Positions 9,774 through 36,420 of a stretch of DNA of 59,663 nt are shown piece by piece; the stretch's first letter is position 1, and each line of letters starts with the position of its first letter. The notes under the pieces are model-generated. The model saw only the letters and a program-made list of their open reading frames with translations. It made no database searches and was not told where the DNA came from. Location of the stretch: the NCBI GenBank assembly GCA_902774145.1, contig CACYHC010000034.1, forward strand, positions 1 to 59,663, in the 5' to 3' direction. The DNA comes from an uncultured Bacteroidia bacterium. Its GTDB lineage: Bacteria > Bacteroidota > Bacteroidia > Bacteroidales > UBA932. Both the position numbers and the translations under genes were made by a program.

Positions 9774-10625
9774 ATGGCCCATAGCAATACAGTTATGCAT
9801 ACCAGAGAAGAAAAAACGGAGGCCTTCGGGCGGTTGTTGGATATTATGGATGCGCTGCGGGAGAAGTGCCCGTGGAATGCGGAGCAGACGATGGAGAGTA
9901 TCCGGCCGATGACCGAGGAGGAGGTGTATGAGTTGAGCGATGCCATCCTGAAGGGCGATGCGGGTGCCGTCTGCAAGGAAATCGGCGACCTGCTTTATCA
10001 TATGGTCTTTTACGCACGCATCGCGCAGGAGGCGGGGCGCTTCGATATCGCCGATTCGCTGGGGAAAATCTGCGACAAGATGGTGTTCCGGCATCCGCAC
10101 GTGTTCGGGGAGAACGGTGGCCGGGTGCCCAGCGCCAAGGAAATCGCCGAAACCTGGGAACTGGTGAAAGCGAAGGAGAAAGACGGCAACAAGACCGTGA
10201 TGGCGGGGATTCCCGATGCGATGCCGGCGGTGCTCAAGGCCCTCTCGATGCAGGAAAAGGCCCGCGGCTGCGGATTCGACTGGGAGAAGCCCGAAGATGT
10301 GTGGGACAAGGTGCGCGAGGAGCTCGGCGAGGTACGCGAAGCCTGCGGCGAGAAGGATGCCGCGCATATCGAGGAGGAGTTCGGCGACCTGCTCTTCGCC
10401 GTCATCAATGCTTCCCGGCTCTACGGAACCGACCCGGAAGCGGCCCTCAGCAAGGCCTGCGACAAGTTCCGCCGCCGTTTCGGCTATCTCGAAGAAAATA
10501 CCCTGAAAAAAGGCATCGGATGCCATTTGGGACGAAGGCAAGGCCAAAGGCCTATAGCTTCCAGACTATTTTACATTCTCCGAAGCATTCGTACGCGGAG
10601 ATTTCATTGTACGACTGCGCGGTAA
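9774..10625 (+). CDS. mazG: Nucleoside triphosphate pyrophosphohydrolase MazG, frameshifted at its 3' end
   Basis: Two MazG domains, each with EExxE...D helices (EEEVYELSDAI...KEIGDLLYHMV, and REELGEVREA...EEEFGDLLFAVI). The enzyme hydrolyses NTPs to NMP and pyrophosphate, acting in nucleotide-pool cleaning. ATG at 9795 (MHTREEK) is an equally good start. After an A6 run at 10506-10511 the open frame changes to unrelated residues and runs to 10625. One A fewer gives ASDAIWDEGKAKGL and a stop at 10555-10557, the expected MazG ending. So there is one extra A, either a real mutation or a homopolymer error. The true stop lies inside the 21-bp direct repeat. Confidence 0.88.
   Translation: MAHSNTVMHTREEKTEAFGRLLDIMDALREKCPWNAEQTMESIRPMTEEEVYELSDAILKGDAGAVCKEIGDLLYHMVFYARIAQEAGRFDIADSLGKICDKMVFRHPHVFGENGGRVPSAKEIAETWELVKAKEKDGNKTVMAGIPDAMPAVLKALSMQEKARGCGFDWEKPEDVWDKVREELGEVREACGEKDAAHIEEEFGDLLFAVINASRLYGTDPEAALSKACDKFRRRFGYLEENTLKKGIGCHLGRRQGQRPIASRLFYILRSIRTRRFHCTTAR
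10538..10558 (+). repeat. 21-bp direct repeat bounding the PUL (left copy)
   Basis: GCAAGGCCAAAGGCCTATAG plus one further C, identical to 30032-30052. In this copy it encodes the native end of MazG (GKAKGL-stop) and contains the small inverted repeat AGGCC-AAA-GGCCT. The flanking bases differ between copies (G versus C before; T versus A after), so the identity is exactly 21 bp. Confidence 0.85.
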
Positions 10626-13186
10626 TTGTAGCCGAGCGCCTCGAGACGGGGCAGTTCCTGTTTCGTAAGCACTGAGCGGAAGCGGTTCCAGTCCTTGTTT
10701 TCCGGCCGGCACCACATCACTTCCGAAAGCGCCAGAATCCTTGGAAGCAACATATATTCCGCGTGGGACATAGTAGCGATGAACTCTGTCCAGACATTGC
10801 CCTGAAGCCCGAGAATATGGTTCGTTGCCTCAAAAGGAATTCCTCGCAGCGGCTCATAGGAATAGCACTTCTCCAAAGGAAGGAAACGCCCGAATCCGTC
10901 CGGCTCCTCATCACGGTTGGTCGATTGACAATAATCCAGATAGCAGTAATCGAGCGGAGTCATAATGACGTCAAAGCCACGTTCAGCCGCCTGAATGCCG
11001 CCTTTGGTCCCGCGCCAGGACATTACGGTCGCCCCCGGCGCAAGGTCCCCTTCAAGAATCTCATCCCAACCTATCACATTCCTGCCTTTGTCAGCAAGAA
11101 TTTTCTGCACCCTTGCGGTAACGTAGTTCTGCAGATAAGTCTCTGCGCTGGCGTGTTCCGTATCGGAAAGCCCGAGTTCCTTTATCTTGGCCTGACAGCG
11201 GGGACATTCTTTCCAGCGCTTTTTGGGGCATTCATCCCCGCCGATATGAATATACTTGTACGGGAAAAGCTCGCAGATTTCCGCAAATACGTTTTCCAGA
11301 AACTCGAACGAGGTCTCCTTCCCGGCACACAGCACCTCCGGAGAAATATCCCATATCGTAAACACGCTGTAGGGACCGCCCGTACAGCCCAGCCAGGGGT
11401 ATGCGGCCAGTGCGGAAGCCAGATGCGCCGGCAGGTCTATCTCCGGCACGACCTCGATGCCCAGCGATGCGGCATAGGCCACGATTTCCCGGATTTCTTC
11501 CTGCGTATAGAAGCCGCCGTACCGGATTCCGTCATTGGTTTTCAAATCGTGACCGACCATCGTACCGTTCCTCCAGGCGCCGATTTCGGTCAGTTTGGGA
11601 TAACGTTTGATTTCAACGCGCCAGCCGTGGTCATCGGTCAGATGCCAGTGAAAACGGTTCAGTTTGTAGAGCGACATCACGCGAAGGAATTTCTTCACAT
11701 CCTCGGTGCTAAAAAAATGCCGGGAGCAGTCCAGATGGGCTCCACGCCAGGAAAAACGCGGGGCATCCGCAATCTCGCAGCAAGGAAGCTCCCCTTCGGC
11801 GGAGAGCAGTTGGCGGAGTGTCGCCAGCGCGTTCACGACACCTGCAAAGCCCGATGCTTTTACCGTCGCGTTCCGCCTCGACACATTGAGTTCGTAGGCC
11901 TCATCTGCAAGCGAAGCGTCGAACTTAAAGGAAATACAGCCGCTCCCTTCTGCGCTGGAAGCAAGTTCCCCGCCAAACGCCTTCACGGCCTCCGCGGCCT
12001 CTGAGGAAAATTCCGGGCTGCAGTTGACCGTCGCCGCGCCGGCGTGGAAACTTCCTCTTTTCAAAGTTACCCTATTGGGATAGGGAATCAGCGGCAACAC
12101 GGGGGCGGTCGCTGTACGGGGGCCAGTCTTTCCGTTGATTTCTCTGATTAACGCAACTTCCTCTTCGGAATACGGCGTTCCATCCTGTCTGAGGATATCG
12201 TGGAACCATACCGACGGCTCATCCACATCGAGCGGCGTATCCCAGGCGAAGATTGTGTTCGTCTTTCCGGAAACGAAACCCCAGTTGATGGCGCCAACCC
12301 CGTTTTCCTTCAGCATAGGAAGGATAGTCTGGAAAGTGCTGTTCTGCGTTCTCGCCATATACTCCGTACAGACCATCGGCTTGCCGTAGCGTTTGAGCGT
12401 ATCCACCATGGCCTTGTGGCTTTCAAGCGGCTCATAGGTGTGATAGGTGATGATATCCGAGTTTTCCAGCTGCCAGACATTCATCTCTCCCAGCCGGGAA
12501 TTCCATACGCCGGCGGTCAGGGGCTGGGAAGGATTGACCTCCCTTGCCCAGCGGAACACATCCTTCAGCAGGGGGAAACTGCGCTCCCAGTAACGGTAGG
12601 GATCCTGGCCGCCACCGGGTTCGTTGTAAAGGTCCCAGGAGTGGATGCGCCGGTCATCTTTGAATTCTTTCAGGATATCCTTGACATAGGCCTCAAGGAC
12701 CTTGAGGATCGCGGTCGTATCTTCTGCATAGCGGACGCCGGAGCCGCAAAGCCCGAAATAAAGGGCACCGGGATCCTTGCACCATCCGGAGTTGTGGACG
12801 CCGCGCAGGGGCGCGGGCTGGGGTCCTGTCTCGCAGGTCTCGTTCCAGCAGTCGTCCAGGAAGACGAACATCGTACGGATACCGTGAGAGGACGCAATGT
12901 CCAGATAACGGTTGATGCGCTTCTTGAAGCCCCGGGCATCCTGTTCCCACAGCTTGTGGTGGAGGAACACCCGCATCAAGTTGAAACCCAGGTCTTCCGC
13001 CCAGCCCAGCTCCTTGTCAATGAGGTCGGGGCTGAACGTTTCTTCCTGCCACATCTCCAACTGGTTGACGGCATTGGAGGGAATATAATCGCATCCGGAA
13101 ACCCAGTCCGGGTTATTGTTGCAATTACCTATCTGGCATCCTGTCATCAGTACCAGAGTCAACGCAAAGAATATCCATTTTTTCAT
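10604..13186 (-). CDS. Two-domain glycosidase lipoprotein: clan GH-A (GH5-like) plus GH20
   Basis: 860 aa with lipobox LMTGC. Residues about 25-350 form a GH5-like barrel with WDLYNEPG (acid/base Glu) and MVCTEYMAR (nucleophile Glu). Residues about 365-460 are the small GH20 N-terminal domain. Residues about 465-855 are the GH20 catalytic barrel with IHIGGDECPK (Asp-Glu pair) and HWHLTDDHGWR. GH20 releases terminal beta-GlcNAc or GalNAc; the substrate of the first domain is unknown. Having both on one lipoprotein suggests sequential trimming of one glycan. Last gene of the PUL, overlapping the preceding gene by 4 nt (ATGA). Confidence 0.88.
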   Translation of the reverse strand: MKKWIFFALTLVLMTGCQIGNCNNNPDWVSGCDYIPSNAVNQLEMWQEETFSPDLIDKELGWAEDLGFNLMRVFLHHKLWEQDARGFKKRINRYLDIASSHGIRTMFVFLDDCWNETCETGPQPAPLRGVHNSGWCKDPGALYFGLCGSGVRYAEDTTAILKVLEAYVKDILKEFKDDRRIHSWDLYNEPGGGQDPYRYWERSFPLLKDVFRWAREVNPSQPLTAGVWNSRLGEMNVWQLENSDIITYHTYEPLESHKAMVDTLKRYGKPMVCTEYMARTQNSTFQTILPMLKENGVGAINWGFVSGKTNTIFAWDTPLDVDEPSVWFHDILRQDGTPYSEEEVALIREINGKTGPRTATAPVLPLIPYPNRVTLKRGSFHAGAATVNCSPEFSSEAAEAVKAFGGELASSAEGSGCISFKFDASLADEAYELNVSRRNATVKASGFAGVVNALATLRQLLSAEGELPCCEIADAPRFSWRGAHLDCSRHFFSTEDVKKFLRVMSLYKLNRFHWHLTDDHGWRVEIKRYPKLTEIGAWRNGTMVGHDLKTNDGIRYGGFYTQEEIREIVAYAASLGIEVVPEIDLPAHLASALAAYPWLGCTGGPYSVFTIWDISPEVLCAGKETSFEFLENVFAEICELFPYKYIHIGGDECPKKRWKECPRCQAKIKELGLSDTEHASAETYLQNYVTARVQKILADKGRNVIGWDEILEGDLAPGATVMSWRGTKGGIQAAERGFDVIMTPLDYCYLDYCQSTNRDEEPDGFGRFLPLEKCYSYEPLRGIPFEATNHILGLQGNVWTEFIATMSHAEYMLLPRILALSEVMWCRPENKDWNRFRSVLTKQELPRLEALGYNYRAVVQ

Positions 13187-14304
13187 AATTCAAACAGAAT
13201 GATATCGCCCGGCTCGAGCACTATCGCTCCGGCACGGAAGGGAGAACGTTTGCCGTCCTTCCCGACCTGCTTTGTCTTCCGGGAAAAATTCAAGCTTATT
13301 TCCTGCGCTTCGGTGCAGTCCTTATTTACGAGTGCAAGGTACTGCCGCCTGCCCTTTTCCACCAGCGAGGCGACCAGCCCGGCTTCCCCGGTCTGAAGCG
13401 AAGCGACGGGGCCGAAGGGCTCGAAGGCACGGGTCCCGTCTGGTAGTGAAGGCCCGGCGTGCCAGACTTGCCGCACATCGGCTCCGGCAAATACCGGTGA
13501 CAAGGCGTGGATCTCCGCATTGACCTGTTTCAACAAATCAAAAACAGGAGTACGCACACCTTCCTTGTCCACGGCTCCGCGGAACGTATAGTACTGGATA
13601 ACCTGGGCCCCGTAGGCAAGGTCACTGAAGGCCTGGAGGCGCAGGTGCCCCAGCGTGGGGACGGGATAAAAAGCCGGAGGCGACGGGGGGCCGAGATAAT
13701 GGGACAACAAAAGCGCAAAGGCCCAGAAAGGCTTTCCGCGCTCCAGGGAAAGATTCCTCATTTCTTCCAGGTTCCGGTACCACAGGGGGCGGACGGAAAT
13801 TTTTCCGTCCGCTTCGGTGATGGAATACTGATCGAAGGAGAAGAACGGCACGTTCACCGAATCCGCAAAGAGTTGCAGGTTCGAGGCGTAAGCTTCCTTG
13901 CCGCCCCAAGCCCAGTTCGGGTACAGGTTTACATAGCAGGGATGGCCCCCGTCCAGGGCGGAAATCCGTGAAACCAGTTTCCCCAGGTCGGGAAGATCCC
14001 AGGTCTCCGGCTCATCCTTGATATAATAGCCTGCCAGGGCGGGATGGTTCTTCAATAACGGGACGATCGAATCCGGATTCTCCAGCATAGCCGGACAGGA
14101 CACGAAGACCTTGATTCCCTCTTTCTGCGCGGCATCCAGCACTTCCATGGCGAGCGGAAGCGTCCGGCTCCGCGTCAGATAATAATCCGTCCCGCTCTCC
14201 CTGAGGTAGGGGAAGAACTCAGCATGCCTCCCCTCAGAAATGCCGTGCCAGGCAAGTGTTTGTATCACTGCCTGGCACAGGCAAAATAGAAGACGGATGG
14301 ACAT
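13183..14304 (-). CDS. PUL TIM-barrel protein A, glycosidase-like, unassigned family
   Basis: 373 aa from ATG 14304, which forms TGATG with the upstream stop. It is homologous along its whole length to the C-terminal half of the protein at 14304-17288 and to the protein at 19311-20507. Shared motifs are [YF]xxxDE (here YYIKDEP), YPNWAWG, FSFDxY, PFWAFAL and PTLGHLRLQ. DE is the best candidate acid/base site. A hydrophobic N-terminus (MSIRLLFCLCQAVIQ) runs almost straight into the first barrel strand and has no good lipobox, unlike its paralogues. Glycan hydrolysis is inferred from barrel features and PUL context only. Confidence 0.75.
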   Translation of the reverse strand: MSIRLLFCLCQAVIQTLAWHGISEGRHAEFFPYLRESGTDYYLTRSRTLPLAMEVLDAAQKEGIKVFVSCPAMLENPDSIVPLLKNHPALAGYYIKDEPETWDLPDLGKLVSRISALDGGHPCYVNLYPNWAWGGKEAYASNLQLFADSVNVPFFSFDQYSITEADGKISVRPLWYRNLEEMRNLSLERGKPFWAFALLLSHYLGPPSPPAFYPVPTLGHLRLQAFSDLAYGAQVIQYYTFRGAVDKEGVRTPVFDLLKQVNAEIHALSPVFAGADVRQVWHAGPSLPDGTRAFEPFGPVASLQTGEAGLVASLVEKGRRQYLALVNKDCTEAQEISLNFSRKTKQVGKDGKRSPFRAGAIVLEPGDIILFEL

Positions 14305-17288
14305 CACGGCAGACGATATACCTTGATGTCACCGGCGGTCAGCGAGCCACTGAACGACGTGACGGGAACATCCCGTCCGTCTTTGCAGATTTCAGTCGCA
14401 GTTCCGCTGAAAGAGATGTTCAGATTCATGTTCTGATCAATGCTGCGGTTCACTATCGCCACATAGCGGCTTCCGCTTTTGGTGAAATAGGAAACCACAG
14501 CTCCCGAAGTGGAAGTGGTGAGCGAACTTACACCGGAAGGCAGGGAAGATCCGAGCGCCGTCGTACCGGTGGGGATGGAAGAACCGGTATGCTTTACCCA
14601 CTGGATGGTAGCATCCTTGAAGACGCGGCCGAGGCTCTGGAGCTCCCTGTTGACGGTTTTTGCCCTCTGATAGACAGGCGTCCTGGAATTCTGGAAAAGT
14701 CCCCAGTAGGTGAAATACTCGAATCCCTGTGCGCCATAGACCAGGTTGCTGAACTGCTGCAACCGCAGATGTCCAAGCGTAGGCACCGGATACACATAGT
14801 AGGGAGAAGCTCCCTGATTATGCGCCAAGGCCAGGGCGAAGGCCCAGAAGGGCACGCCGGCATTCCTGGAAACCGTAAGTGCGGATTCCAGGTTCTGGTA
14901 CCAGATAGGGTTCAGGGTGGCAGGGAACGAAGAGCCCTCTTTTCCGGTATAGATGGGATAGTGATCGAACGAGAACAGCTTCACGCCCGTGTACTGGACA
15001 TAATTCGTACAGGTTCCCGTGTAATCACTTACATTCCACGCCCAGTTGGGAGGGAAGTTCAGGTAGAACATATGCTTATTGTCCAGTTTACTGATATCGG
15101 TCACGAACGACTTGGCCCCGGCATACTCCTGCGCAGACCACAGCTCGTCCGCTACGAAGTAGCCGTAAAAGGCGGTATTCGTAAGGAGCTGGTTCACGAC
15201 GGAGGCAGCGGTACTGGAATTCGCAAGTTCCGGTGTGGTGGTGATCATCTGGACACCGGCTGTCTTCGCCATATTCAGCGCCTTGAACATATCCGTCTGG
15301 TTGCCGTAACCGCTCAGGTAGAGGGTGAAACCGGCATCGCGCATCGAGTTGAAGGCATTCTGTCCCGCGGAGGAATTGATATCGATTCCTGCCCAGCCCA
15401 AGATGGGGAAAACTTCTTCCACGTCCCATTGCGGATCGGCCTCGGGGTCGTCCGAATGGTAGGTGAGGCTCACGACACCGGTCGCCTTGTTGTACTCCAG
15501 CATATACAGGCCGGGATAGAAGGTGACATTGGTATTCTGTGTAAGGAAGCAGATATTCTCGTTGTGTACGGTAACAAGGTCAGGGGTGTTGGTCGTAAGG
15601 GACTTCACGTTCGCAGCCCATGCCCTGTTGGTGTAGAGCTGCACGGCCCAGTCGTCTCCCAGATAGAGCAGCGCCTGATAGACATTGGTGCTCTTCCTGT
15701 ACATACTCAACTGTCCGTAGGCCTCCGTGTGCCCCCACAATTCATTGAGGAAGGTATCGTCACGCAACGAATAGGTAAGGTACGGTGAAAGCGGATAGCT
15801 GGCGTTGCGGCCTATGAGGAAAATGCTTTCGCTTGTACCTGCGATATCCTGAAGCACAATCCATCCGGCATCCGGGGCGTAATAGGTCTCGTAGTTGCGG
15901 TCGATTCCGTCATAGGTGGCGATACCCTTGGTATCGTCAAAGTTGGAGAACGGCCATATGGCAAGGGCCTTCGAGGCCTTTTCGCTGAAATTGAGCAACT
16001 GGATCTCACCACCCTGTACCAGAGGCATTATCCACTTCACCTTGGTCGTGGAAGAACCGTAGGCGGGCATGGTATTCTTGTCCAGTACCTGACGGAAATT
16101 GGCCCGGCACTTGTCCATATCGAAGGTGATATAGTCCGGAGCTACGTTGTACGTGGAGTACACGGATGGTTTGTTCGTCTTTGTGCCGGAACTGGTTGTC
16201 CGTACCATGGCCCTGAAATCCGAGCCGCCCGCCACGTAACCGCTGTTGTCGATGGTCGTACCGTTGACCTTCTCCGCGATGAGGAATGCACTTCCGAGCG
16301 TGTTCGCCTGGGCGATGCTGGTGGATTCATAATGATACCTGCTGGTACGGGTAAGCGGAATCACGTGTGAGGCATTGTCCACAACATAAAGCGTCGCGGG
16401 AGGCAGAGGCAGATTATAGTCGAAGCGCAGGGACTTGATTTTTCCGGGAGCAAAAGTCTCGGCGGTAGAGAGCGTCACGCTTTTCTCATAATCGTTGATG
16501 CGGAGGCTGAGGGTCTTGCCCGCCGCCACGCTGCAGGGAGCGATGCCCAAATAGAAGGTCGCCGACTCGTTGTTGGCGATGGCCTGGCCGCCGCTGACGG
16601 TCAGTACGGCCGTGTTGCTTCCGTCCCTTACATAAGTGACTTCGGGTGCGCTGTCAGGAACGCTGATGCTGAATTTGCCGCTGATCATCGTACCCTCCGG
16701 CACGGTCAGGGCAATCTCGTTGACAGAGAAGCTACTGCCGGAGTGGTTGGTCACGGTAAATTCAACGATGGAGGCGACGTGCGACATCGTAACTACCGGT
16801 ACATCAGAACCCTTGGCGGTGGTCTTCCCGTACAGCGGGAAGGCCTTGCCTGCCAGATGGGCCTTGCTTCCGTTGCCGCTCTGGGTCTGCGTGCCGCCTA
16901 CTGCAAGCACCGCATCGGACACATGCTGTTTCATGGCGGCGTCATAGGGGTAGAAGGCAAACCATTTGTAGTTAACCGAAGGAGTCAGGGTGCCGGAAAC
17001 GGTGCCCAGGAAGCTCCCCGTCTCGCTGTTGCTGAGCGTAAACGCTCCGTCCATTCCGTACTCGGAAGCGCTTGACGCGCAGTGCATCACGGCAATTTGG
17101 TCACCGGTCGCCCAGCGGGTATAAAGGCCGTCGTTGACGGTTTTGCTCTCATCCGGTACGGCCTGGATTTCAAAAGCATTCTCACCTGCAATCGATGCAT
17201 CGGGTAACAGTTCCTTTTGGCAGGCAGAGAACGCACTCAGGGCCACTGCGGCCAGTACCAGAAACTTATTGATGATTTCCTTTTTCAT
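14304..17288 (-). CDS. Fimbrillin-like / SusE-like / TIM-barrel fusion lipoprotein (PUL barrel B)
   Basis: 994 aa. Lipoprotein signal (AFSAC), fimbrillin-like domain (about 30-300), a SusE-like module (about 310-640, starting LYVVDN and containing IAEKVNG, IGRNASYPL and a final YMLEYNKATG), then the barrel (about 655-994) with ADELW in place of the DEP of its paralogues, FSFDHYPI and PVPTLGHLRLQQFSN. The N-terminal two thirds match the neighbouring 17295-19151 protein. It appears to join surface anchoring, glycan binding and catalysis in one chain. The loss of Pro after DE may alter activity. Confidence 0.8.
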   Translation of the reverse strand: MKKEIINKFLVLAAVALSAFSACQKELLPDASIAGENAFEIQAVPDESKTVNDGLYTRWATGDQIAVMHCASSASEYGMDGAFTLSNSETGSFLGTVSGTLTPSVNYKWFAFYPYDAAMKQHVSDAVLAVGGTQTQSGNGSKAHLAGKAFPLYGKTTAKGSDVPVVTMSHVASIVEFTVTNHSGSSFSVNEIALTVPEGTMISGKFSISVPDSAPEVTYVRDGSNTAVLTVSGGQAIANNESATFYLGIAPCSVAAGKTLSLRINDYEKSVTLSTAETFAPGKIKSLRFDYNLPLPPATLYVVDNASHVIPLTRTSRYHYESTSIAQANTLGSAFLIAEKVNGTTIDNSGYVAGGSDFRAMVRTTSSGTKTNKPSVYSTYNVAPDYITFDMDKCRANFRQVLDKNTMPAYGSSTTKVKWIMPLVQGGEIQLLNFSEKASKALAIWPFSNFDDTKGIATYDGIDRNYETYYAPDAGWIVLQDIAGTSESIFLIGRNASYPLSPYLTYSLRDDTFLNELWGHTEAYGQLSMYRKSTNVYQALLYLGDDWAVQLYTNRAWAANVKSLTTNTPDLVTVHNENICFLTQNTNVTFYPGLYMLEYNKATGVVSLTYHSDDPEADPQWDVEEVFPILGWAGIDINSSAGQNAFNSMRDAGFTLYLSGYGNQTDMFKALNMAKTAGVQMITTTPELANSSTAASVVNQLLTNTAFYGYFVADELWSAQEYAGAKSFVTDISKLDNKHMFYLNFPPNWAWNVSDYTGTCTNYVQYTGVKLFSFDHYPIYTGKEGSSFPATLNPIWYQNLESALTVSRNAGVPFWAFALALAHNQGASPYYVYPVPTLGHLRLQQFSNLVYGAQGFEYFTYWGLFQNSRTPVYQRAKTVNRELQSLGRVFKDATIQWVKHTGSSIPTGTTALGSSLPSGVSSLTTSTSGAVVSYFTKSGSRYVAIVNRSIDQNMNLNISFSGTATEICKDGRDVPVTSFSGSLTAGDIKVYRLP

Positions 17289-17294
17289 TCTTTT

Positions 17295-19151
17295 CTATTT
17301 TTTGACCAGGGTGGCCTGCTTTGTGGAAGAGTTGTAGGTGAGGGTGTATAATCCGGCCGTAAACGATGTGCCGGCAGCACCATATATTCCATCATCGATT
17401 CGGAGCGTAGCCGGCGTGGTGGAAGTCACTCCCTTCTGCTGCTGGGCCCACGCGGCAGCGGTATAGAACTGGAAACCAAAGCCTGTATTCAGATAGACCG
17501 TGGTCTTGAAAACGTTGCTGGTGGTGGTTTCCATCATATACAACCTCTTCCAGCAACCGTTGTCCTGCGCGTAGAAGTTATCATCGGCCAAAGTATAACT
17601 TGCGTTATACGTAGGAGGACAGCTGGCATTGCGTCCTATGAGGAACACCTGCGAACCGCCAAGCTGCCAGAAAGTCAGATATTTCGGTGTCTTGACATAG
17701 TGGGCCTCATAATTATGCTGCTTGCCCGTATAGGTTGCCGTCAAGGTAGTATTGTTGATGGACGTGAACCAGTCGGCATTGAGCATCGCTGTGGGGCTCG
17801 CCGGGAAATTCATGAACTCCACGCGGCAGTTGTTGGGCATCGGGCATACCCAGCGGACCTTGTCATCGGTACGGTTACCGAGAGAGTTATAATCCAGAAT
17901 CAGTCTGAACTGCATCTTCGGGCTGGACGGATTGCTCATGTCCACGAAGATTCCGTCCGGTTTGCTGTCGGAGTACTCATAATAAACATCGGGTTTGTAA
18001 ATACCCGTATCGTCGGTGGACCAGCTGGCGATTTTGCTGACGTTGTTGTAGTCGTTCCCGCCGATTACCCAGCCAGAACCGTCGATGGCGCCGTTGGTAA
18101 TCTTCTCCGCAATCCAGAAGACGGGAGCAATGGTACGGCAGGCCGTGACATCATTTGTAGCGTAGGTTTCGGTAGTTCCTATCCTGTTCAGCGTCAATAC
18201 CAGACCGGCATTGTCTCTTACATAAATCTGGTTCGGCGTGGCTTTGTAGGTCACATTCAGTTTCTTCATCTTCCCGCCGGCGAAGCTCTTGGCTAAGGGC
18301 ATCGTGGCCGTGCTGCGGACTCCGTTGATTTCCACATGGATCTGCTGGCCGCTGGAGAGGTCGAATGGAGCCGCCGCCAGATAGAATTTTGCATTTCCCC
18401 CGGCCGCGATGGTCTTGGCGCCGCTGCCGAGGGTAAGGGTGGCGCTTTCTGAACCGCTGACCCTGTTAAGGGCGGGGGAGCTACCGGTAAGGTTTACATT
18501 GTACGTGCCACTGATATACTTACCTGAAGGCAGGATAACCTTGACGGTGTTTACGGTCAGCGTGGAAGACGTTCCGTTGGTGACGATGATCTCCAGGAAG
18601 GTGCTCAGGTGCGTCATATTGAAGGTAGGGGTACTGTTCCAAGCAACGGAAGTGGCCTTGCCCCAGAGCGGCGCATAGGTCCCTGCCAAATGAGCCCTGC
18701 TGTCTACGGCGGACTGCGTCATATTACCACCTATGGCGACGGCCGCATCGGCAATCTTTGTCGTCATTGTGGCCATGTAGGGATATATGGCCAGCCAGTT
18801 GTAACTCTGGTTTTCAACCAGTGCGGAACTGAGCGTCCCCTCGAATTTGCCGGTAGCGGCATCCTCGAGCGTAAAGGCTCCGTCCATTGTATAGCTGCTC
18901 CCCTGGCCGTGCATGATACCAAGCTGGTCGCCCGCCGCCCAAAGCGTAGACATACCGGAGTTGGTGGTCTTGGAAGCGCTTGCCTGATTTTCGGACTCGT
19001 CATCAGGATCGTTCGGAACGGCGAAAAGCTGGAAAGTCTGCGTTGCCTCGCCGGGGACGGGCTCCGGTTCCTGATCCGTTATTTTTTCGCAGGAAAAGGC
19101 CAATAGCGCCAGAGGCAACCCTATGGATAAGAAATAATGTCTGTTTTTCAT
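17295..19151 (-). CDS. Fimbrillin-like / SusE-like surface lipoprotein
   Basis: 618 aa. Lipoprotein signal ending LLAFSC, then CEKITDQEPEP, an acidic stretch like those used for surface export in Bacteroidota. Fimbrillin-like domain (about 35-285, with NWLAIYPY) and a SusE-like module (about 295-618, with IYVRDN, IAEKI, LIGRNASCPP and YTLTYNSSTK at the end). It lacks a catalytic domain. Together with the next gene it looks like a duplication in which one copy gained a barrel. Role inferred: glycan-binding surface protein. A 45-aa peptide gene lies 15 nt upstream. Confidence 0.78.
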   Translation of the reverse strand: MKNRHYFLSIGLPLALLAFSCEKITDQEPEPVPGEATQTFQLFAVPNDPDDESENQASASKTTNSGMSTLWAAGDQLGIMHGQGSSYTMDGAFTLEDAATGKFEGTLSSALVENQSYNWLAIYPYMATMTTKIADAAVAIGGNMTQSAVDSRAHLAGTYAPLWGKATSVAWNSTPTFNMTHLSTFLEIIVTNGTSSTLTVNTVKVILPSGKYISGTYNVNLTGSSPALNRVSGSESATLTLGSGAKTIAAGGNAKFYLAAAPFDLSSGQQIHVEINGVRSTATMPLAKSFAGGKMKKLNVTYKATPNQIYVRDNAGLVLTLNRIGTTETYATNDVTACRTIAPVFWIAEKITNGAIDGSGWVIGGNDYNNVSKIASWSTDDTGIYKPDVYYEYSDSKPDGIFVDMSNPSSPKMQFRLILDYNSLGNRTDDKVRWVCPMPNNCRVEFMNFPASPTAMLNADWFTSINNTTLTATYTGKQHNYEAHYVKTPKYLTFWQLGGSQVFLIGRNASCPPTYNASYTLADDNFYAQDNGCWKRLYMMETTTSNVFKTTVYLNTGFGFQFYTAAAWAQQQKGVTSTTPATLRIDDGIYGAAGTSFTAGLYTLTYNSSTKQATLVKK

Positions 19152-19166
19152 CGCGCTGTCGTTTTA

Positions 19167-19304
19167 CTAATAGAAATCCAGTTCATCGGCATCATATTGG
19201 ATGTCGTTAATGTTATTATGTGTCGAGGCACACATGAGTCCCGCATGCAAAATATCTTTAACGCTAGCTTCCGGGGCTTCGTACGAAATTTTTTTTATCA
19301 GCAT
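19167..19304 (-). CDS. 45-aa peptide of the repeated cysteine-peptide family (member 2)
   Basis: Frame beginning MLIKKISYEAPEASV with LMCAST around Cys25 and ending in acidic and aromatic residues (DADELDFY). Tyr8-Glu9-Ala10-Pro11, Val15 and Cys25 coincide with the other 45-aa peptide at 20513-20650. It sits in a 6-nt/15-nt sandwich between the barrel C gene and the fimbrillin-like gene, on the same strand. No signal peptide. Function unknown; translation is inferred from conservation. Confidence 0.68.
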   Translation of the reverse strand: MLIKKISYEAPEASVKDILHAGLMCASTHNNINDIQYDADELDFY

Positions 19305-19310
19305 ATCTGT

Positions 19311-20507
19311 CTATTTTAGATTGTATACAATAATATCTCCGGCCGGCATTTCGACTTCACCGGAGACAGCCGGGACCATGGTGCCGTCTTTGAGAACCTG
19401 TTTTACATTCGGTCCCAGTTTGACTGTGATTTTTCTCGGTAAAGCAAAATCCTTGTTAACGATGGCAAAATAACATTTACCATTCTTCTCTATATAGGAA
19501 ACCACGGTGCCGATATCCTCGGTAACGAGTGATTCCACTCCGTCCGGCAAATGAGAGACGGGAGAGGTCCCGAATGGCAGGGAGGAACCTGTATGCCAGA
19601 CAGCTTTTACCTCCGCACCATAAAATACGGGAGCGAGCCCCTGCAGTTCTTCATTCACCTGTTTCACACGGTCATATACCGCGGTCTTGGTGCCCTGGAA
19701 GGCGCCCCACCAGGTAAAATACTGGAATGCCTGGGCGCCGTAAACGAGGTTGCTGAACTGTTGCAGGCGGAGGTGTCCGATGGACGGGACGGGGTACAGG
19801 AATCCGTTCAGCTTGTGCGAGAGCGCAAGCGCGAATGCCCAGAAAGGCATCTTTCGGGCCCTGCTGGCCGTCCTGATATCCTCCAGGTTTTTATACCAAT
19901 CGTCCCTCAGGGAGGTGACGCCGTTGATTTCCCGGATCGGATAATTGTCGAAGGACAGGAACGTCACCGGAACCTGGTTGAGGAAATTGTTCACATTGCC
20001 CAGGTAGCCGGTGTTGCCGCCCCACGCCCAGTTGGGATACAGGTTGATGTAACAGGGATGATCAGAATCATAGCGCTGAATGCTCTTGACGATTTGCGAC
20101 AGCAACGCAAAATCAGATACGGAGGGCTCATCTGAAATATGATAACCGAACAGCGCCGGACATTCCCTCATCCGCTTTACGGTGCCGGAGACGTCGGAAA
20201 ACAGTTCGTCACTCTTGATAATGAGCTTTACCCCGGCTTTTTCGGCATCCTCGAGGGCCTGCATCACCTCTGCCAGCGTGTCATACCAGCCAAGGTACAC
20301 ATTGACACCGGCCTCTTTCATCGGCGTGAATTTCCAGGAAGTCTCGTTTGACTTGATCCCGGTCCAGGCAATGATGGGGAAAACCTCTTCCTCCGGATCC
20401 ACAGGGGGATCGGGAGGAGAGGGGTCCACGGGGGTCTCCTTTCCTTGACAGGCTACCATCAGGAAAGCTGTCACGGTAAGTAAGATAGGAATAATTCTTT
20501 TACGCAT
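19311..20507 (-). CDS. PUL TIM-barrel lipoprotein C, glycosidase-like, unassigned family
   Basis: 398 aa. Lipobox LMVAC, then a Pro/Asp/Glu-rich linker (residues 22-42) and a complete barrel starting EVFPIIAWTGI. Motifs shared with barrels A and B: FGYHISDEP, CYINLYPNWAWGG, LSFDNYPI, PFWAFALALSH, PSIGHLRLQQFSN, and a C-terminal beta domain (about 300-398) with IVNKD. This is the cleanest single-domain version and the best query for a family search. It is expected at the cell surface, acting on the PUL glycan. Confidence 0.78.
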   Translation of the reverse strand: MRKRIIPILLTVTAFLMVACQGKETPVDPSPPDPPVDPEEEVFPIIAWTGIKSNETSWKFTPMKEAGVNVYLGWYDTLAEVMQALEDAEKAGVKLIIKSDELFSDVSGTVKRMRECPALFGYHISDEPSVSDFALLSQIVKSIQRYDSDHPCYINLYPNWAWGGNTGYLGNVNNFLNQVPVTFLSFDNYPIREINGVTSLRDDWYKNLEDIRTASRARKMPFWAFALALSHKLNGFLYPVPSIGHLRLQQFSNLVYGAQAFQYFTWWGAFQGTKTAVYDRVKQVNEELQGLAPVFYGAEVKAVWHTGSSLPFGTSPVSHLPDGVESLVTEDIGTVVSYIEKNGKCYFAIVNKDFALPRKITVKLGPNVKQVLKDGTMVPAVSGEVEMPAGDIIVYNLK

Positions 20508-20512
20508 GTGAC

Positions 20513-20650
20513 TTAGAAATAAATCACATCCCCATCATATTCATAGGGGTCGATTGTCGACCTTGCGGAGGTGGTACAAATCTCCGGTCCGTCCTGGAGG
20601 GGGAAAACTTCCAGGACGGGCGCTTCGTAAAATTGCTTCTCTTTATTCAT
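20513..20650 (-). CDS. 45-aa peptide of the repeated cysteine-peptide family (member 3)
   Basis: Frame beginning MNKEKQFYEAPVLEV with EICTTS around Cys25 and ending YDGDVIYF. It has exactly the length of member 2 and the same Y8-E-A-P11, V15 and C25 register. Its ATG lies inside the last codons of the SusE-like gene (8-nt overlap) and its stop is 5 nt before the barrel C start, so it is probably translationally coupled on both sides. No export signal. Function unknown. Confidence 0.7.
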   Translation of the reverse strand: MNKEKQFYEAPVLEVFPLQDGPEICTTSARSTIDPYEYDGDVIYF

Positions 20651-21989: not shown

Positions 21990-22003
21990 AATACTATGTG
22001 TTT

Positions 22004-23368: not shown

Positions 23369-23380
23369 CGTGCTGGTGAA

Positions 23381-25033: not shown

Positions 25034-25041
25034 TTCAAATC

Positions 25042-28000
25042 CTATTTAAAATTGAATTTTAAACCAAGTGAAAAGGTCCGGGACATAGGATAACCGGCCG
25101 GGGATGAGGAATTACCCGTATAGATTTCCGGATCCACGCCGGCAAAGGTCGTGAACGTGAGCGGGTTCTGGGTGTCGAAATAGACCCTGATGTTTTCAAC
25201 CCGCTTGGAGAGCACCTTGCCCAGGATAGCCCCGTTGATGTTGTATCCAAGCGTGATGTTCCTGACACGGACGAAAGAGGCATCCTGACGCCTCAAGTCC
25301 GTGCCTGCATTGCCGGGAAGCGATACTCCTTTGACCGATGCGATTCCGGGCAGGTCCCCCGAGGTGTTGTTCTGCGAATTCCATATACGGTATGCATACT
25401 GGTTGGAGTTTTGCGGAGTCGTATAGGAGAACTGTGCGGCACTGGCCCACTGTAACGCATAGTTGTATTTGGTGGCGCCGAACTGTCCGTAGAAGAAGAT
25501 ATCCAGGTCGAAGTTTTTGTATCGGAAGGTATTCCCGAAGCCGATGGAAATCTTCGGCAGGACATCTTCCATATAAATATCGTCCATCGTAATCATGCCA
25601 TCCTTGTTCTTATCTTCGATAATGGCATAACCGGGCATTTGCGCGTCTTCAGAAAGGGATTTTTGCGATTCCGGCATATTTGAACGGTCGGCATTGATGA
25701 TGCCGGCCACCTTGTAGTAGTAGTTGGCGTTCATCGGCTCGTTTACCTTGATCTGATATTCCGCGTAATCGTAATTCTCCGCACGCTTCACCCAAAACAT
25801 CCCATAGCGCGTAAGGGTTAACTGGGAGGTCCACTTGAATCCGTCCGCCGTCTTGATGTTCAAGGAATTGATGATGGCATCCCAACCCTGCCTGTAATAA
25901 TGGCCGTAGTTGACGGGGCGGCTTCCAACCATATTCAGCGGTTCTCCGGGAGCTACACCCAGCAGATCCGTTACGTCGTTACGGAAGACATCGATGCTTC
26001 CCCATATCCGGTCTCCCAAGAGATGGAAATCCAAACCAATATTTTTCATAATGGTCTTTTCCCAGGTGACATCCGGATAGTCTGCACCAGACTTCATATA
26101 AGGAATGTAAACGGTATTGTTGTTGTCAAAATACACATAGTTGGTGGCCAACTCATAAAGCCCGTACAATGAAGTCCCAAGGTTATCGCGTCCCGTGACA
26201 CCGTAACTGCAGCGCAGTTTCAGCAGGTTGATCCACGAAACATTCTTCATGAAGTTCTCGTTGGAAATCTTCCATGCAAGCGAGACAGAGGGGAACCAGG
26301 CATATTTCTTCCCGGGGAAGAATTTGTCGGTTCCGTCCCGGCGTACGGTGGCGGCAATCACATAGCGGTCCAGGAAGTCGGCGGATACCCGGCCGAACTG
26401 GGAACGTTTTTCGTTCTCATACTTTGAAGAGGTCGGGTAGAACGGCCCTGCAGCCCCACCGACACTATCCGGGCCGATGAGGTCGTTTGCGTTCTTATAG
26501 TCCAGTTCCAGCGTATTGCCTGAGGTCTTGTACCAACCAAAGCCCAGCACCGCATCCAAATCGACGATGTTCCCGAATTTCTGTTTATAGGTCAGCATCA
26601 CCTCAACGGTCTGGTCGTTCCGCTGCGCATCACCCAGATGTCCTCTGGAAACCCCGACAATCTCATAATACATCATGTCCGTAGGAATGTAGAGGGAGCG
26701 CTTGGCGGTTTCGCGGTTGTAGCCGTAGACGGCGCGCATTTTCAGAATGTCCTTCCAGATATTGAGATCGGCGGAGAAGTTGACATACCAGCCGGTGGAG
26801 TTCGTCATGTCTTTGAAATTGGCCATTTCGGAAGGATTGGCGATGGAATTACGGTATCGCATAATCTTCCCTTCCGCATCCAGGACCGTGTAAGTAGGAG
26901 GGAACATCAACGCGGTCTGGAGGGCATCCTTGCCGATACCGCCGGCCCCGCCGCCATCGGCGTTCGAGTTCGTGTACTCATTGGAGTTGATGTTCAGAAT
27001 GGAACTGAGTTTCAAGAACGGAAACACCTGCGCAGACAGATTGGAGCGCAGGGTATAGCGCTTCATCCTGGAATTGATTACCGTACCCGTCTGGTCAAAG
27101 AAATTACCTCCCAGATAATATTTGACATACTTGCTGCCTCCGCTGATCGTGACAGAATGGTTCTGAATGCTTCCGGTACGGAATACATAATCCAGCCAGT
27201 TGGTGGTTTTGGCGTTCGCAATATCGTACGGCGTATATTCGGGAGACCAGTTCCCATCATATGCTGCATCCCCGTAGGGAGCCATACGGTGATTGTACAG
27301 ATAGATTTCCTTGCTGAATACATTTGCGAAGTTCATATACTCCTGCGAATTCAGCGGCTCCATATACTTGTAGTTGGTCACCAGGGAGAAATTGGTTTCC
27401 AAAGAGACTCGCGGCGATGTCTCACTGCCTTTCTTCGTCGTGATCAAGATAACGCCGTTCGCCGCATTGATACCGTAGATAGACGCTGATGCATCCTTGA
27501 GCACTTCGATGGATTCGATGTCTCCGGGGTTGAGGCCGGCAAGCCCCGACCGGTTGATGGAGTTCGGCGTTTCAATCGTACCACGGCCTACCTCAAGAGA
27601 GCCGGAAGGCATCATGATTCCGTCTACTATATATATAGGTGTTCCACCGCCACGGATCGAGATATCCACATTACCACCGGGCTGTGCGCTGCTGATCGTG
27701 GCCCTCAGTCCAGCCGCCTTACCCAGCAGCAATTGGGAAACATTGCTATTGGAGACCCTGTTGATGTCCGCCGCCTTAACGGTTGCAACGGAAGTCGTCA
27801 GGTTCTTCCTGAGCGTGGTACCGTATCCGATGGCGACGGCCTCGTTGATCATCTCGGTGTCTTCCTCCAGGACAATATCCATCGTTGCACGGGTGACCTT
27901 TAAATCCTGGGAAGTATAGCCCAGACAGGCAATGTTCAGGACTTGTCCTTTCGCCGCCTCGATGGAATATTTGCCATCCATATCCGTGATGACGCCCTTG

Positions 28001-28404
28001 TTGGTGCCTTTGATCATTACGGAGGCGCCAATCACAGCCTCTTCCTTTGTATCAGTAATCCGTCCCGACACCGTAAACTGCTCCGCGTCGGCCCGCGCCT
28101 GGCGCTGTGGCGCCGGTGTAATGACAATTTTGTTCCCCACGAGCGTGTAAACAAGGTTGAAACGGGACAATTCGGTTGTGAGCAACTCTTTGATGGATAA
28201 ACCCTTGCCGCTTACGCTTACCGTGGGGGTATCAGGCAGCTGTACATCCCGGTAGGACACGGAATAAGAAGACTGCGTTTCAATGATTGAAAGCAGTTCC
28301 TTAAGGGGTGCATCCTTGATGTCGATGTCAATCTTCCCGGTCTGCGCCGACACCGGCACGGAAAGAATGACGAACGTCAGGAAACTAAATAATTTCGCCT
28401 TCAT
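25042..28404 (-). CDS. SusC/RagA TonB-dependent transporter with STN signalling domain
   Basis: 1120 aa. Signal peptide, then an STN domain (about 23-95: IDIKDAPLKELLSIIE...), a carboxypeptidase-like regulatory domain (about 107-185), the plug (about 195-320, with LLLGKAAGL and the SusC-type YIVDGIMM), and the barrel ending RTFSLGLKFNFK. It imports oligosaccharides across the outer membrane using TonB. The STN domain normally contacts the FecR anti-sigma protein, here encoded 7 nt upstream, so this transporter should also sense the glycan. Confidence 0.95.
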   Translation of the reverse strand: MKAKLFSFLTFVILSVPVSAQTGKIDIDIKDAPLKELLSIIETQSSYSVSYRDVQLPDTPTVSVSGKGLSIKELLTTELSRFNLVYTLVGNKIVITPAPQRQARADAEQFTVSGRITDTKEEAVIGASVMIKGTNKGVITDMDGKYSIEAAKGQVLNIACLGYTSQDLKVTRATMDIVLEEDTEMINEAVAIGYGTTLRKNLTTSVATVKAADINRVSNSNVSQLLLGKAAGLRATISSAQPGGNVDISIRGGGTPIYIVDGIMMPSGSLEVGRGTIETPNSINRSGLAGLNPGDIESIEVLKDASASIYGINAANGVILITTKKGSETSPRVSLETNFSLVTNYKYMEPLNSQEYMNFANVFSKEIYLYNHRMAPYGDAAYDGNWSPEYTPYDIANAKTTNWLDYVFRTGSIQNHSVTISGGSKYVKYYLGGNFFDQTGTVINSRMKRYTLRSNLSAQVFPFLKLSSILNINSNEYTNSNADGGGAGGIGKDALQTALMFPPTYTVLDAEGKIMRYRNSIANPSEMANFKDMTNSTGWYVNFSADLNIWKDILKMRAVYGYNRETAKRSLYIPTDMMYYEIVGVSRGHLGDAQRNDQTVEVMLTYKQKFGNIVDLDAVLGFGWYKTSGNTLELDYKNANDLIGPDSVGGAAGPFYPTSSKYENEKRSQFGRVSADFLDRYVIAATVRRDGTDKFFPGKKYAWFPSVSLAWKISNENFMKNVSWINLLKLRCSYGVTGRDNLGTSLYGLYELATNYVYFDNNNTVYIPYMKSGADYPDVTWEKTIMKNIGLDFHLLGDRIWGSIDVFRNDVTDLLGVAPGEPLNMVGSRPVNYGHYYRQGWDAIINSLNIKTADGFKWTSQLTLTRYGMFWVKRAENYDYAEYQIKVNEPMNANYYYKVAGIINADRSNMPESQKSLSEDAQMPGYAIIEDKNKDGMITMDDIYMEDVLPKISIGFGNTFRYKNFDLDIFFYGQFGATKYNYALQWASAAQFSYTTPQNSNQYAYRIWNSQNNTSGDLPGIASVKGVSLPGNAGTDLRRQDASFVRVRNITLGYNINGAILGKVLSKRVENIRVYFDTQNPLTFTTFAGVDPEIYTGNSSSPAGYPMSRTFSLGLKFNFK

Positions 28405-28411
28405 GGTTAAA

Positions 28412-29389
28412 CTATTGTTGAATGATGATTAGATGGTCGTCTATGACGGAATATTTAAATCCATAGTGCATCCTCAAGATATTGAGGATGTCTTCAACGC
28501 GCTTGTCCGCAAAGGCTCCGGTATAAAGATCCGAGGTATTCAGGCTTTCAGGATATTGTATCTGAACGCCGAAACGATGCTCGAGAATCTCGAACACCTT
28601 GCAGAGCGGGTCATGTGAGAAGATAACATTCGAGCCCATCCAGGCAGTTTCTATCCTCATATCAGTATGCACCAACTCAATGGTTCCGCTTCCCTTGTCG
28701 TAAACCGCCTTGTCTCCGGGCGACACGACCACTTCTCCCCTTCCACCGTCAACGCCGACGCTTCCCTCCAGGACGGAAGTCTCGATAATGTCACGGAAAG
28801 GATAAGCGTTTACATTGAACTTGGTCCCAAGGTCACGTATACGAAGATTAGGCGCAACGACAATGAATGGGGAATCCGGACGATGTTTGACCTCAAAGAA
28901 AGCTTCCCCGTTCAATTCGACCACACGGGAGGTCAGACCATACGAGGGGCTGTATTTCAATGTGGAACATGCATTGAGGCAAACCAGCGACCCGTCTGGC
29001 AAATAAACCAGCGACGGGCTCTCCTTTCCGGATTTTACAGTCAGTCTGGATGACGATATCTGCTCAAGTGCGGCATTCCTTGAGAACAGGCTGACGCCCA
29101 GTACACCGCAGACGGCCAGAAGGCATACGGCGAGAGCCCAGTATAAAAATCTACGGACGGGCGAGACGGCCGGACGGAAAGTATCCGGAAACATCCTTGT
29201 CGGATATCTCTTGGGGCTGTTCGCGGAAAAACCCGCCCACTCTTCAGCCATATCGGCTTTGAGCGCGACGTCCTGGACAGACTCCAACTCTTCGAGGAAG
29301 AGGTCGAAGTCTTCAGGAGCAAGTTTCTCCGTCTTGAATTTTGTTATCAACGGGGTCTTATCCACGTTACTACTATCCATAATACCCAT
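28412..29389 (-). CDS. FecR family anti-sigma factor
   Basis: 325 aa when started at ATG 29389, two bases after the sigma-factor stop; ATG 29380 is also possible. A longer frame to 29437 overlaps the sigma gene and is less likely. The cytoplasmic N-terminal part is followed by one membrane helix (WALAVCLLAVCGVLGVSL), a periplasmic FecR domain (FEVKHRPDSPFIVVAPNLRIRDLGTKFNV is the hallmark region), and a C-terminal STN-like part. It holds the ECF sigma factor until SusC signals substrate. Confidence 0.9.
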   Translation of the reverse strand: MGIMDSSNVDKTPLITKFKTEKLAPEDFDLFLEELESVQDVALKADMAEEWAGFSANSPKRYPTRMFPDTFRPAVSPVRRFLYWALAVCLLAVCGVLGVSLFSRNAALEQISSSRLTVKSGKESPSLVYLPDGSLVCLNACSTLKYSPSYGLTSRVVELNGEAFFEVKHRPDSPFIVVAPNLRIRDLGTKFNVNAYPFRDIIETSVLEGSVGVDGGRGEVVVSPGDKAVYDKGSGTIELVHTDMRIETAWMGSNVIFSHDPLCKVFEILEHRFGVQIQYPESLNTSDLYTGAFADKRVEDILNILRMHYGFKYSVIDDHLIIIQQ

Positions 29390-29391
29390 AA

Positions 29392-29925
29392 TTATAACAT
29401 CGGAAACTTTGATTTTATGATTTTCATGGCCGCGCACAACTGATTGCTTACTACCTGCGCCTGGATGCCGAGCCGTTGGGCGATTTCACTTACGCTCAGT
29501 TCCAGTTCCTTGTTCATAATGAAGATTTCCTTCTGCCTGGGAGTAAGACATTTTTTTCCCTCTTCCACCGCCCGCATAAACACGTCAAAGTCGTAGCTGG
29601 TAGAGTCTGCTTTGGAATCATACATACATTCCAAATAGTCCCGCAGAAGAGGATTCTTGGCCAGACGGCGCAATTCTTTCAGTATCTGATGATACGAAAT
29701 GGTAAAAAGATACGATTTGACAGGCTGTTTTTCATCAAGATACTCCCTTCGCATCCATAGTTTCGCAAAGGTATCCTGAACAATATCTTCTGAAACAGTC
29801 TTTGACTTGCAGTACTGAAAGGCGAATGCAAAGAGTGAGGGACTATAGCGGTCGTAAAGCAGTTCGAAACTTTTAACGTCCGCTAAATCCCTTATTCTTT
29901 TGATAAGTACACTGTCCTCCTGCAT
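29392..29925 (-). CDS. ECF-type RNA polymerase sigma factor of the PUL
   Basis: 177 aa from ATG 29925 (MQEDSVLIKRIR). The open frame reaches 29985, but its first 20 residues look non-coding. Region 2 (about 20-85: FELLYDRYSPSLFAFAFQYC, EDIVQDTFAKLW) and region 4 (about 115-175: LTPRQKEIFIMNKELELSVSEIAQRLGI). It directs RNA polymerase to the PUL promoter once released by FecR. It is the first PUL gene and lies about 107 nt from the right 21-bp repeat. Confidence 0.92.
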   Translation of the reverse strand: MQEDSVLIKRIRDLADVKSFELLYDRYSPSLFAFAFQYCKSKTVSEDIVQDTFAKLWMRREYLDEKQPVKSYLFTISYHQILKELRRLAKNPLLRDYLECMYDSKADSTSYDFDVFMRAVEEGKKCLTPRQKEIFIMNKELELSVSEIAQRLGIQAQVVSNQLCAAMKIIKSKFPML

Positions 29926-30031
29926 ACGGCAAGGCGCATAAATGCATATATATATTATCCGCAAAACGGAAAATATAACATGCAATTATGTAGGTCGCCG
30001 ATGCGAGGGCCTTATTCGATATTGCTGGTTC

Positions 30032-30052
30032 GCAAGGCCAAAGGCCTATAGC
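30032..30052 (+). repeat. 21-bp direct repeat bounding the PUL (right copy)
   Basis: Identical to 10538-10558. Here it covers the stop codon (30046-30048) and the last leucine codon of the kinase-like gene on the minus strand, and extends into the space before the PUL sigma factor. Confidence 0.85.
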
Positions 30053-34104: not shown

Positions 34105-34110
34105 ACGTTG

Positions 34111-34118
34111 CAAAATTA
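34111..34118 (-). promoter_or_regulatory. -7 box (TAATTTTG) for the DHH gene
   Basis: TAnnTTTG match 6 nt before ATG 34104, so transcription should begin at or next to the start codon. Confidence 0.6.
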
Positions 34119-34127
34119 CTGAATTGT

Positions 34128-34158
34128 TTTGGAATCCGAAAACAATTTCCTATTTTTG
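34128..34158 (+). promoter_or_regulatory. -33/-7 promoter for 34190 and rsmD
   Basis: TTTG at 34128-34131 and TATTTTTG at 34151-34158 with a 19-bp spacer, an ideal Bacteroidota promoter. The leader is about 28 nt. Confidence 0.75.

Positions 34159-35412: not shown

Positions 35413-36420
<1,008 letters not shown>

Follow-up and report, generated by a model that had tools for sequence, protein, structure and literature searches.

A PUL between two copies of a 21-bp sequence at the convergent ends of mazG and a kinase-like gene in a Bacteroidales genome

The window, as the whole stretch of DNA analysed here is called (59,663 nucleotides), belongs to a 2.23-Mb genome in 76 contigs, and in it a 19.5-kb block of carbohydrate-use genes, a PUL, separates mazG from a cytidylate-kinase-like gene (Table 1). 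As originally predicted, two identical 21-bp sequences, GCAAGGCCAAAGGCCTATAGC on the + strand, lie at the outer edges of the PUL, and they enclose all of it: ECF sigma, FecR, SusC, SusD, GH20 and six more genes. Exact identity between the copies ends at 21 bp on either side. No other exact direct repeat of at least 17 bp in the window has copies separated by more than 3 kb, the next longest being 16 bp, and with up to three mismatches allowed the window still yields just the two copies, and 100 shuffles yield none. Could it be one of many dispersed repeats? The count for the whole genome is 2 forward and 0 reverse, with 0 for a control pattern, and that reading is thus ruled out.

Table 1. Features of the mazG/kinase locus (positions in the window)
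Feature	Position	Strand	Basis or remark
mazG (MazG nucleotide pyrophosphohydrolase)	9774..10625	+	PF03819 2.2e-37; comparison with G233/G276
Left 21-bp copy	10538..10558	+	by homology final 20 nt of mazG and one further C
CBM9-like gene remnant, probable	10559..10607	-	alignment to gene whole at PUL end in G233
GH20-family gene	10604..13186	-	PF00728 1.9e-111
Four PUL genes: 374 aa, 994 aa, 618 aa, weak GH42-like 398 aa	13183..20507	-	last: PF02449 6.7e-05
Two mutually related PUL genes, 448 and 454 aa	20643..23368	-	cross-matches
SusD	23381-25033	-	PF07980, PF07715, PF13715 (jointly with SusC)
SusC	25042-28404	-	PF07980, PF07715, PF13715 (jointly with SusD)
FecR	28412-29437	-	PF04773, PF16344, PF04542, PF08281 (jointly with ECF sigma)
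ECF sigma factor, from first TTG	29392-29985	-	PF04773, PF16344, PF04542, PF08281 (jointly with FecR)
Linker, 41 bp	29991..30031		between PUL end kept in G233 and right 21-bp copy
Right 21-bp copy	30032..30052	+	duplicated mazG end; kinase stop supplied by its CTATAG
Cytidylate-kinase-like gene	30046..30669	-	PF13189 3.5e-53
Right flank: MatE, FKBP-type protein, methyltransferase, pta, ack	30672..37634		Pfam and comparison

When the 11 PUL genes, five of which match no family, were scanned against Pfam, no recombinase or transposase family was detected, in keeping with the expectation that the PUL carries no recombinase of its own. The 374-, 994- and 618-aa proteins are without a Pfam match and the 448- and 454-aa proteins without either a Pfam or an NCBIfam match; NCBIfam likewise gave nothing for the four genes of 13183..20507, nor did the 994-aa protein match a solved structure. 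Cross-matches show those four genes to be related in segments to one another or to the next two. Among 25 of 31 pairs listed, no inverted repeat pair of at least 18 nt was found at the PUL ends. That the PUL is plasmid or phage cargo was rejected on a megablast search of 72,556 plasmid and 50,697 phage records, which returned no match and is silent on distant relatives.

The two flanking genes had been thought both to end in the repeats, and for the kinase-like gene this holds, since it terminates within the CTATAG of the right copy, but the mazG frame overshoots the left one. Compared with the closest relatives found, G233 and G276, mazG lacks 29 bp at about 10517/10518, a deletion 20 bp upstream of the left copy that shifts the frame so that the C-terminal end is lost and the ORF passes the repeat to run to 10625. 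In the relatives the frame ends ..AIWDEGKAKGL* (G233) and ..AIWDEAKAKGL* (G276), at the TAG corresponding to the left copy, which is accordingly the end of mazG by homology and not in the window's own reading frame. Immediately beyond it lies a probable gene remnant whose start-codon region is ATGAAATCT and whose C-terminus, ECFGECKIVWKL, would end in the left copy's CTATAG; its alignment score was reached by 0/2000 shuffles, in a frame picked after inspection, and the name CBM9-like is tentative. On the other side the 41-bp linker has no other match in its own genome, G233 or G276, and the kinase gene carries, at about 30106-30151 and ~54 bp from the right repeat, a 21-bp tandem duplication that alignment finds missing in G233, G276 and G008. 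The right flank beyond is collinear with that of G276, and in G233 pta-ack is inverted.

What does the locus look like where there is no PUL? In G276 and G233 mazG and the kinase gene converge, and a single CTATAG serves both stops without an intervening PUL, which is the uninterrupted ancestral layout foreseen in the original prediction, complete with its single repeat copy. Beyond these two, mazG adjoins the kinase gene without a PUL in five other, more distant relatives (G008, G143, G388, G332 and G308), making seven of 73 relatives by a hand count of distinct genomes in a survey of best-match loci and, in most cases, flanks of 1.5 kb. The others of the 73 have different arrangements, or the stretch falls short of both genes, and no PUL genes were seen beside mazG in the stretches surveyed. 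In G015, G229, G275 and G283 the AcCoA-hydrolase/mazG pair is turned relative to the kinase. A contig scan with the kinase gene gave one close match; the other 76 loci, at most 45% identical, were left out. Given the empty site in relatives the PUL is, on this comparison, a derived insertion that duplicated 21 bp of its target. The insertion had been expected to be clean, and the PUL-free site and the duplication agree with that, but the mazG deletion and the kinase tandem duplication, both absent from the relatives compared, do not. At positions 8 and 14 of the repeat both window copies read C and G276 and G233 read G, so that the duplication is probably younger than the split from them.

The PUL itself has a longer history. 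In G233 it lies next to the inverted ack-pta pair, about 7.6 kb away from the PUL-free mazG site of that genome, with a SusC 95% identical to that of the window. With at most two candidates scored per genome, SusC of at least 90% identity occurs in just this one of 399 other genomes of the genus, the next being at 70%, and a mobile island common to many relatives was set aside on that count. The gene order is mazG-kinase block-[ack-pta inverted]-PUL-D in G233 and mazG-PUL-kinase block-pta-ack-D in the window; G276 has the block without a PUL. The left limit of the PUL is nearly the same gene end in the window and G233, and its middle (window 17882-23970) is missing from the G233 assembly except for two short matches on contig C46. 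The PUL edges are 77-83% identical between the two genomes, inside the backbone range, and as judged from this identity the PUL is older than its insertion at mazG and not new to the lineage. Elsewhere in the comparison identity is ordinary (67-88%) in the mazG and kinase flanks, 95-99% in tracts within the PUL and 99-100% from 38.8 kb onwards. The PUL ends of G233 lack the 21-mer, and no exact repeat of at least 11 bp links the two junctions there in the 170- and 250-bp slices compared. A 15-bp match between the G233 kinase end and the PUL/D junction is probably due to chance, as that junction is GC-rich and self-repetitive. Since in G233 the PUL already lies nearby, at a different gene pair, the window arrangement may reflect relocation rather than the arrival of a mobile element.

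Do other PULs of the same genome share the feature? Eleven contig stretches (330,995 bases), which contain the 12 other SusD matches, one of them below cut-off, were searched for exact direct repeats of at least 15 bp separated by more than 3 kb. Several stretches were short or ended by a contig edge, and among the eight longest pairs per contig none had the signature of the mazG site. Among those same pairs, ones of at least 20 bp bracket SusD in three stretches, on C15, C8 and C4. The C15 and C8 pairs resemble longer diverged repeats in constant register, and on C4 a PUL island is flanked on one side by a tRNA-Glu gene with its terminator and on the other by a partial, decayed copy. The C4 island is like the mazG site in that a PUL lies inside direct repeats, those on C4 more than 20 kb apart, on a contig with no PF00589 match, and unlike it in that the repeat there is a tRNA-Glu gene, a usual integrase target, whereas at mazG it is the end of a protein gene; moreover, the G233 version of the mazG-site PUL has no repeat.

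How, then, did the PUL come to be there? The most likely reading, and one to which we give moderate confidence, is that non-site-specific repair or template switching inserted it at a break in the mazG/kinase junction. PUL DNA, from the lineage's own copy shifted a few kilobases or from the same PUL of a related cell, would have entered the broken or stalled junction, and staggered ends, or a short re-copying step, would account for the doubled 21 bp as well as for the small deletion and the tandem duplication. At convergent gene ends the insert would be tolerated because neither promoter nor coding core is cut. The private lesions of both flanking genes fall within about 100 bp of the repeats, which counts for repair. 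Counting against it, a perfect 21-bp direct repeat is also a product of site-specific integration, and the tRNA-Glu and its partial copy around the C4 island are a classical att signature in the same genome; the near-identical left PUL limit in the window and G233 could mean a defined unit, and the five genes without a Pfam match could hide an unrecognised recombinase.

In a possible, if rather unlikely, alternative the PUL is an island lacking an integrase, served by a tyrosine recombinase encoded elsewhere that took the final 20 nt of mazG for its attB, with the 21-mer as att core and the mazG end restored on integration. The perfect repeats, the empty attB in relatives and the position at a gene 3′ end would suit it, as would the four PF00589 matches on other contigs of the genome (C14, C8, C64 and C47) and the att-like duplication on C4, where no integrase of that family is matched. 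Yet the insert has no recombinase match, the 21-mer is nowhere else in the genome and not at the G233 PUL ends, mazG is frameshifted just upstream with its frame not restored, and the plasmid and phage records gave no megablast match.

Unlikely too is a local rearrangement in several steps. In this the PUL would at first have lain beyond the kinase-MatE-FKBP-methyltransferase block, by pta-ack as in G233, with nested inversions having one staggered break, or tandem duplication and reciprocal loss, then moving it to mazG and leaving 21 bp twice. The differing orders of PUL and block in G233 and the window, with the PUL-less block of G276, are in its favour, and the AcCoA-hydrolase/mazG pair, turned in four genomes, indicates that the region rearranges. 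However, two or more events are required, the ancestral arrangement is not observed, and when the block/pta and ack/D junctions of the window were set against G276, neither showed a recognisable trace of an earlier PUL. Very improbable is a false contig join of the PUL to mazG and the kinase gene via the repeat as a common smallest k-mer, for though the exact match is precisely 21 bp, a usual assembler k, and the genome is in 76 contigs, such a join needs the 21-mer with the lineage's own bases next to the PUL in real DNA, the linkers differ on the two sides, and the G233 PUL is in the same chromosomal neighbourhood.

Returning to repair into a broken junction as the preferred reading, where does the locus stand among known systems? 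A 21-bp target-site duplication is present, as for a transposon or IS, yet it exceeds the usual length for transposases, and neither a transposase (Pfam, 11 genes) nor the terminal inverted repeats already mentioned were found. A 2019 study of PULs on ICEs and IMEs is reportedly by Jiang et al., and one of 2022 on 'genomic nodes' in Bacteroides ovatus/xylanisolvens is said to be by Pudlo et al. The former (PMC6907783) describes PULs borne on recognised mobile elements, ICEs and IMEs among them. The likeness is a SusC/SusD locus acquired as a block, and perfect direct repeats at both ends with an empty site in G276 and G233 would go with an integrase-type island; the difference is that the classification of those elements rests on integrase, relaxase or transposase genes, of which none was found in the mazG-site insert (for integrase, by Pfam on the 11 genes), and the G233 PUL ends have neither the 21-mer nor a shared repeat of at least 11 bp. 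Comparable too are the PUL and capsule islands that, according to PMC8845570, lie precisely between core-gene 'genomic nodes': there as here a PUL fits exactly between a pair of core genes and brings no mobility genes, and related genomes are free of it. Mosaic identity, which for those islands points to exchange by homologous recombination, may be a further likeness. Exchange is there explained between genomes that share the flanking nodes, whereas here there is the footprint of a non-homologous insertion (21-bp duplication, small lesions) at the node, and 'direct repeat' as a term is absent from that paper's main text. The mazG case thereby adds a footprint to the known pattern of PULs precisely between core genes without mobility genes.

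It is conceivable, though quite improbable, that PULs of this Bacteroidales genus can in general move without a recombinase as discrete self-contained blocks with near-fixed ends, from the last gene's stop to the sigma gene's upstream region, landing in stop-stop overlaps of convergent core genes and leaving target duplications of about 20 bp. For Bacteroidales genomics it is still a puzzle how whole PULs come to be placed neatly between core genes in the absence of a mobility gene. Towards an answer the mazG locus offers a before/after pair at base resolution, a target duplication, repair-like flanking lesions and the same PUL at a neighbouring junction in a relative, whereby competing mechanisms of PUL insertion become testable; in it one can read the traces that such a block of genes may leave on changing its position in a gut bacterium.

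Between mazG and a convergent cytidylate-kinase-like gene, the PUL, a carbohydrate-use gene block, is a real, derived insertion. As the original prediction had it, an identical pair, GCAAGGCCAAAGGCCTATAGC, lies at its two edges, the exact identity ending at 21 bp; none was found in shuffled versions of the window. Could it be a dispersed repeat? Beyond this pair, the organism's own genome (2,230,285 bases, 76 contigs) contains no copy, which rules that out. A PUL-free locus with one shared CTATAG had also been foreseen, and exists in G276 and G233, the closest relatives found: there the acetyl-CoA hydrolase gene is followed by mazG, kinase and MatE, no PUL intervenes, and a single CTATAG is common to the stops of mazG and the kinase (final bases of the junction ..GAAGCCAAGGCGAAAGGGCTATAGCAGCCCCCGC in G276 and ..GAAGGGAAGGCGAAAGGGCTATAGCAGCCCCCGC in G233). 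In G008, G143, G388, G332 and G308 the convergent kinase directly adjoins mazG, again with no PUL and with longer spacers. Adjacency without the PUL was thus seen in 7 of 73 relatives (distinct handles) and a PUL beside mazG in none of the 73 in the stretches seen, most being loci with 1.5-kb flanks that often stop short of both genes, so that the remaining relatives say little. Among 221 genus genomes searched (at least 86% complete, own included), the nearest mazG DNA is that of G233 (86%), the next being 79%; that of G276, a less complete genome found in a separate search, is 83%.

The neighbourhood is rearrangement-prone, the acetyl-CoA-hydrolase/mazG pair being inverted relative to the kinase-MatE block at loci L042, L043, L049, L161 and L162 (G275, G283, G015, G229). 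About 1.3 kb of other sequence separates kinase from mazG in G009 (L028), and in G011 (L021) MatE adjoins mazG (a split match), the kinase being absent from there; changes may have struck repeatedly at the end of mazG.

The repeat-bounded interval has 11 genes: ECF sigma, FecR, SusC, SusD, GH20 and six further, one of them weakly GH42-like. Family searches agree with the expectation of no recombinase inside, giving no recombinase or transposase match among the 11, five of which are without any Pfam match. GC is 53.0%, versus 57.6% and 56.3% in the flanks. Some PUL proteins comprise two repeated families, 370-aa GH42-like and 450-aa segments, united in a 994-aa protein; these proteins had no match in NCBIfam, nor the 994-aa one among solved structures.

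Coordinates of features (window, unless a contig is named)
Feature	Position	Remark
mazG	9774-10625	plus strand
21-bp repeat, left copy	10538-10558	plus strand
21-bp repeat, right copy	30032-30052	plus strand
Kinase	30046-30669	minus strand
Tandem duplication in kinase	30106-30151	21 bp, in frame
PUL proteins with repeated segments	13183-23368
PUL middle	17882-23970
High-identity tract versus G233 C46/C70	11600-17880	mostly 95-99%; neighbouring genes ~82%
High-identity tract versus G233 C46/C70	38773-40452	99-100%; neighbouring genes ~82%
Large protein, six scored Big_2 Ig-like domains	585-4736	507-bp repeat unit at ~1.2-2.5 kb
Second PUL, tRNA-att island (L208, L209)	own genome, contig C4, 29448-55803	SusD at 42191

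Is the insertion clean, as first proposed? Its derived nature and the empty site in relatives stand, but it is not perfectly clean. The window mazG is without 29 bp present in G233 and G276, the gap lying 20 bp before the left copy, and due to this loss its frame passes TAG and ends at 10625. The kinase's tandem duplication, ~54 bp from the right copy, is absent from G233, G276 and G008. A CBM9-like gene that is complete in G233 appears, at the PUL's left edge, cut down to its start and C-terminus ECFGECKIVWKL, stopping in the left copy's CTATAG; the remnant's alignment score was reached by 0 of 2000 shuffles, the frame having been chosen after looking. All three lesions are co-located with the insertion, though co-location gives no order in time.

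G233 has the PUL elsewhere. Its contig C46 runs mazG, kinase block (window 30034-35405), inverted ack-pta (window 37634-35420), the PUL's left 7.3 kb, contig end; C70 has the PUL's right 6 kb, then window 37773-40452. Since the PUL middle was not found in that assembly except for two short C46 matches, we infer continuity across the C46/C70 gap. The middle has no match in G276, G008, G143, G388, G332 or G308. The 21-mer is absent from the G233 PUL ends, whose two junctions have no exact repeat of at least 11 bp in common in the slices compared. Against G233, identity is 77-83% at the left PUL edge, 77-82% at the right, mostly 95-99% over 11.6-17.9 kb (dipping to 87% near 16.6-17.1 kb), 83-94% in SusD/SusC, 99-100% from 38.8 kb on and 67-88% in the backbone, which points to edges about as diverged as the backbone and recent exchange inside the PUL. 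The high-identity tracts indicate recent homologous exchange between species. For concatenated neighbours the values are 82.1% (window-G233), 82.0% (window-G276) and 79.8% (G233-G276), and so the three form nearly a trichotomy.

The mechanism was probably non-site-specific: a single insertion by repair-type joining, through staggered ends or template switching, would have duplicated the 21 bp. Multi-step relocation of the PUL from the pta side is possible, as other members of the genus show rearrangement here, the hydrolase-mazG pair being turned in G015, G229, G275 and G283. Site-specific integration by an integrase is less likely, repair-type joining fitting better because of the 21-bp duplication, no recognised recombinase, the different surroundings of the G233 copy and private lesions on both sides; it is retained in part because of the second PUL island in the organism's own genome, bracketed by tRNA-Glu(CTC) plus terminator and, 26.25 kb apart, a partial, decayed tRNA 3′ half plus terminator, on a contig with no PF00589 match. 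In G276 and G233 the sequence after tRNA-Glu(CTC) had no match to that island in the stretches compared; in G276 a 789-bp match there is to C4 62211-62999, outside it.

Recognised mobile elements carry 47 SusC/SusD loci according to PMC6907783 (2019), and PMC8845570 (2022) describes PULs set precisely between core ‘genomic nodes’, mobile-DNA functions being absent, and proposes chromosome conjugation and homologous recombination between nodes. No report of a target duplication of this kind at a genomic node was found in the literature searched. The mazG/kinase insertion is a variation on the known pattern of PULs between core genes, and to the node PULs described there it adds a 21-bp duplication at the junction.
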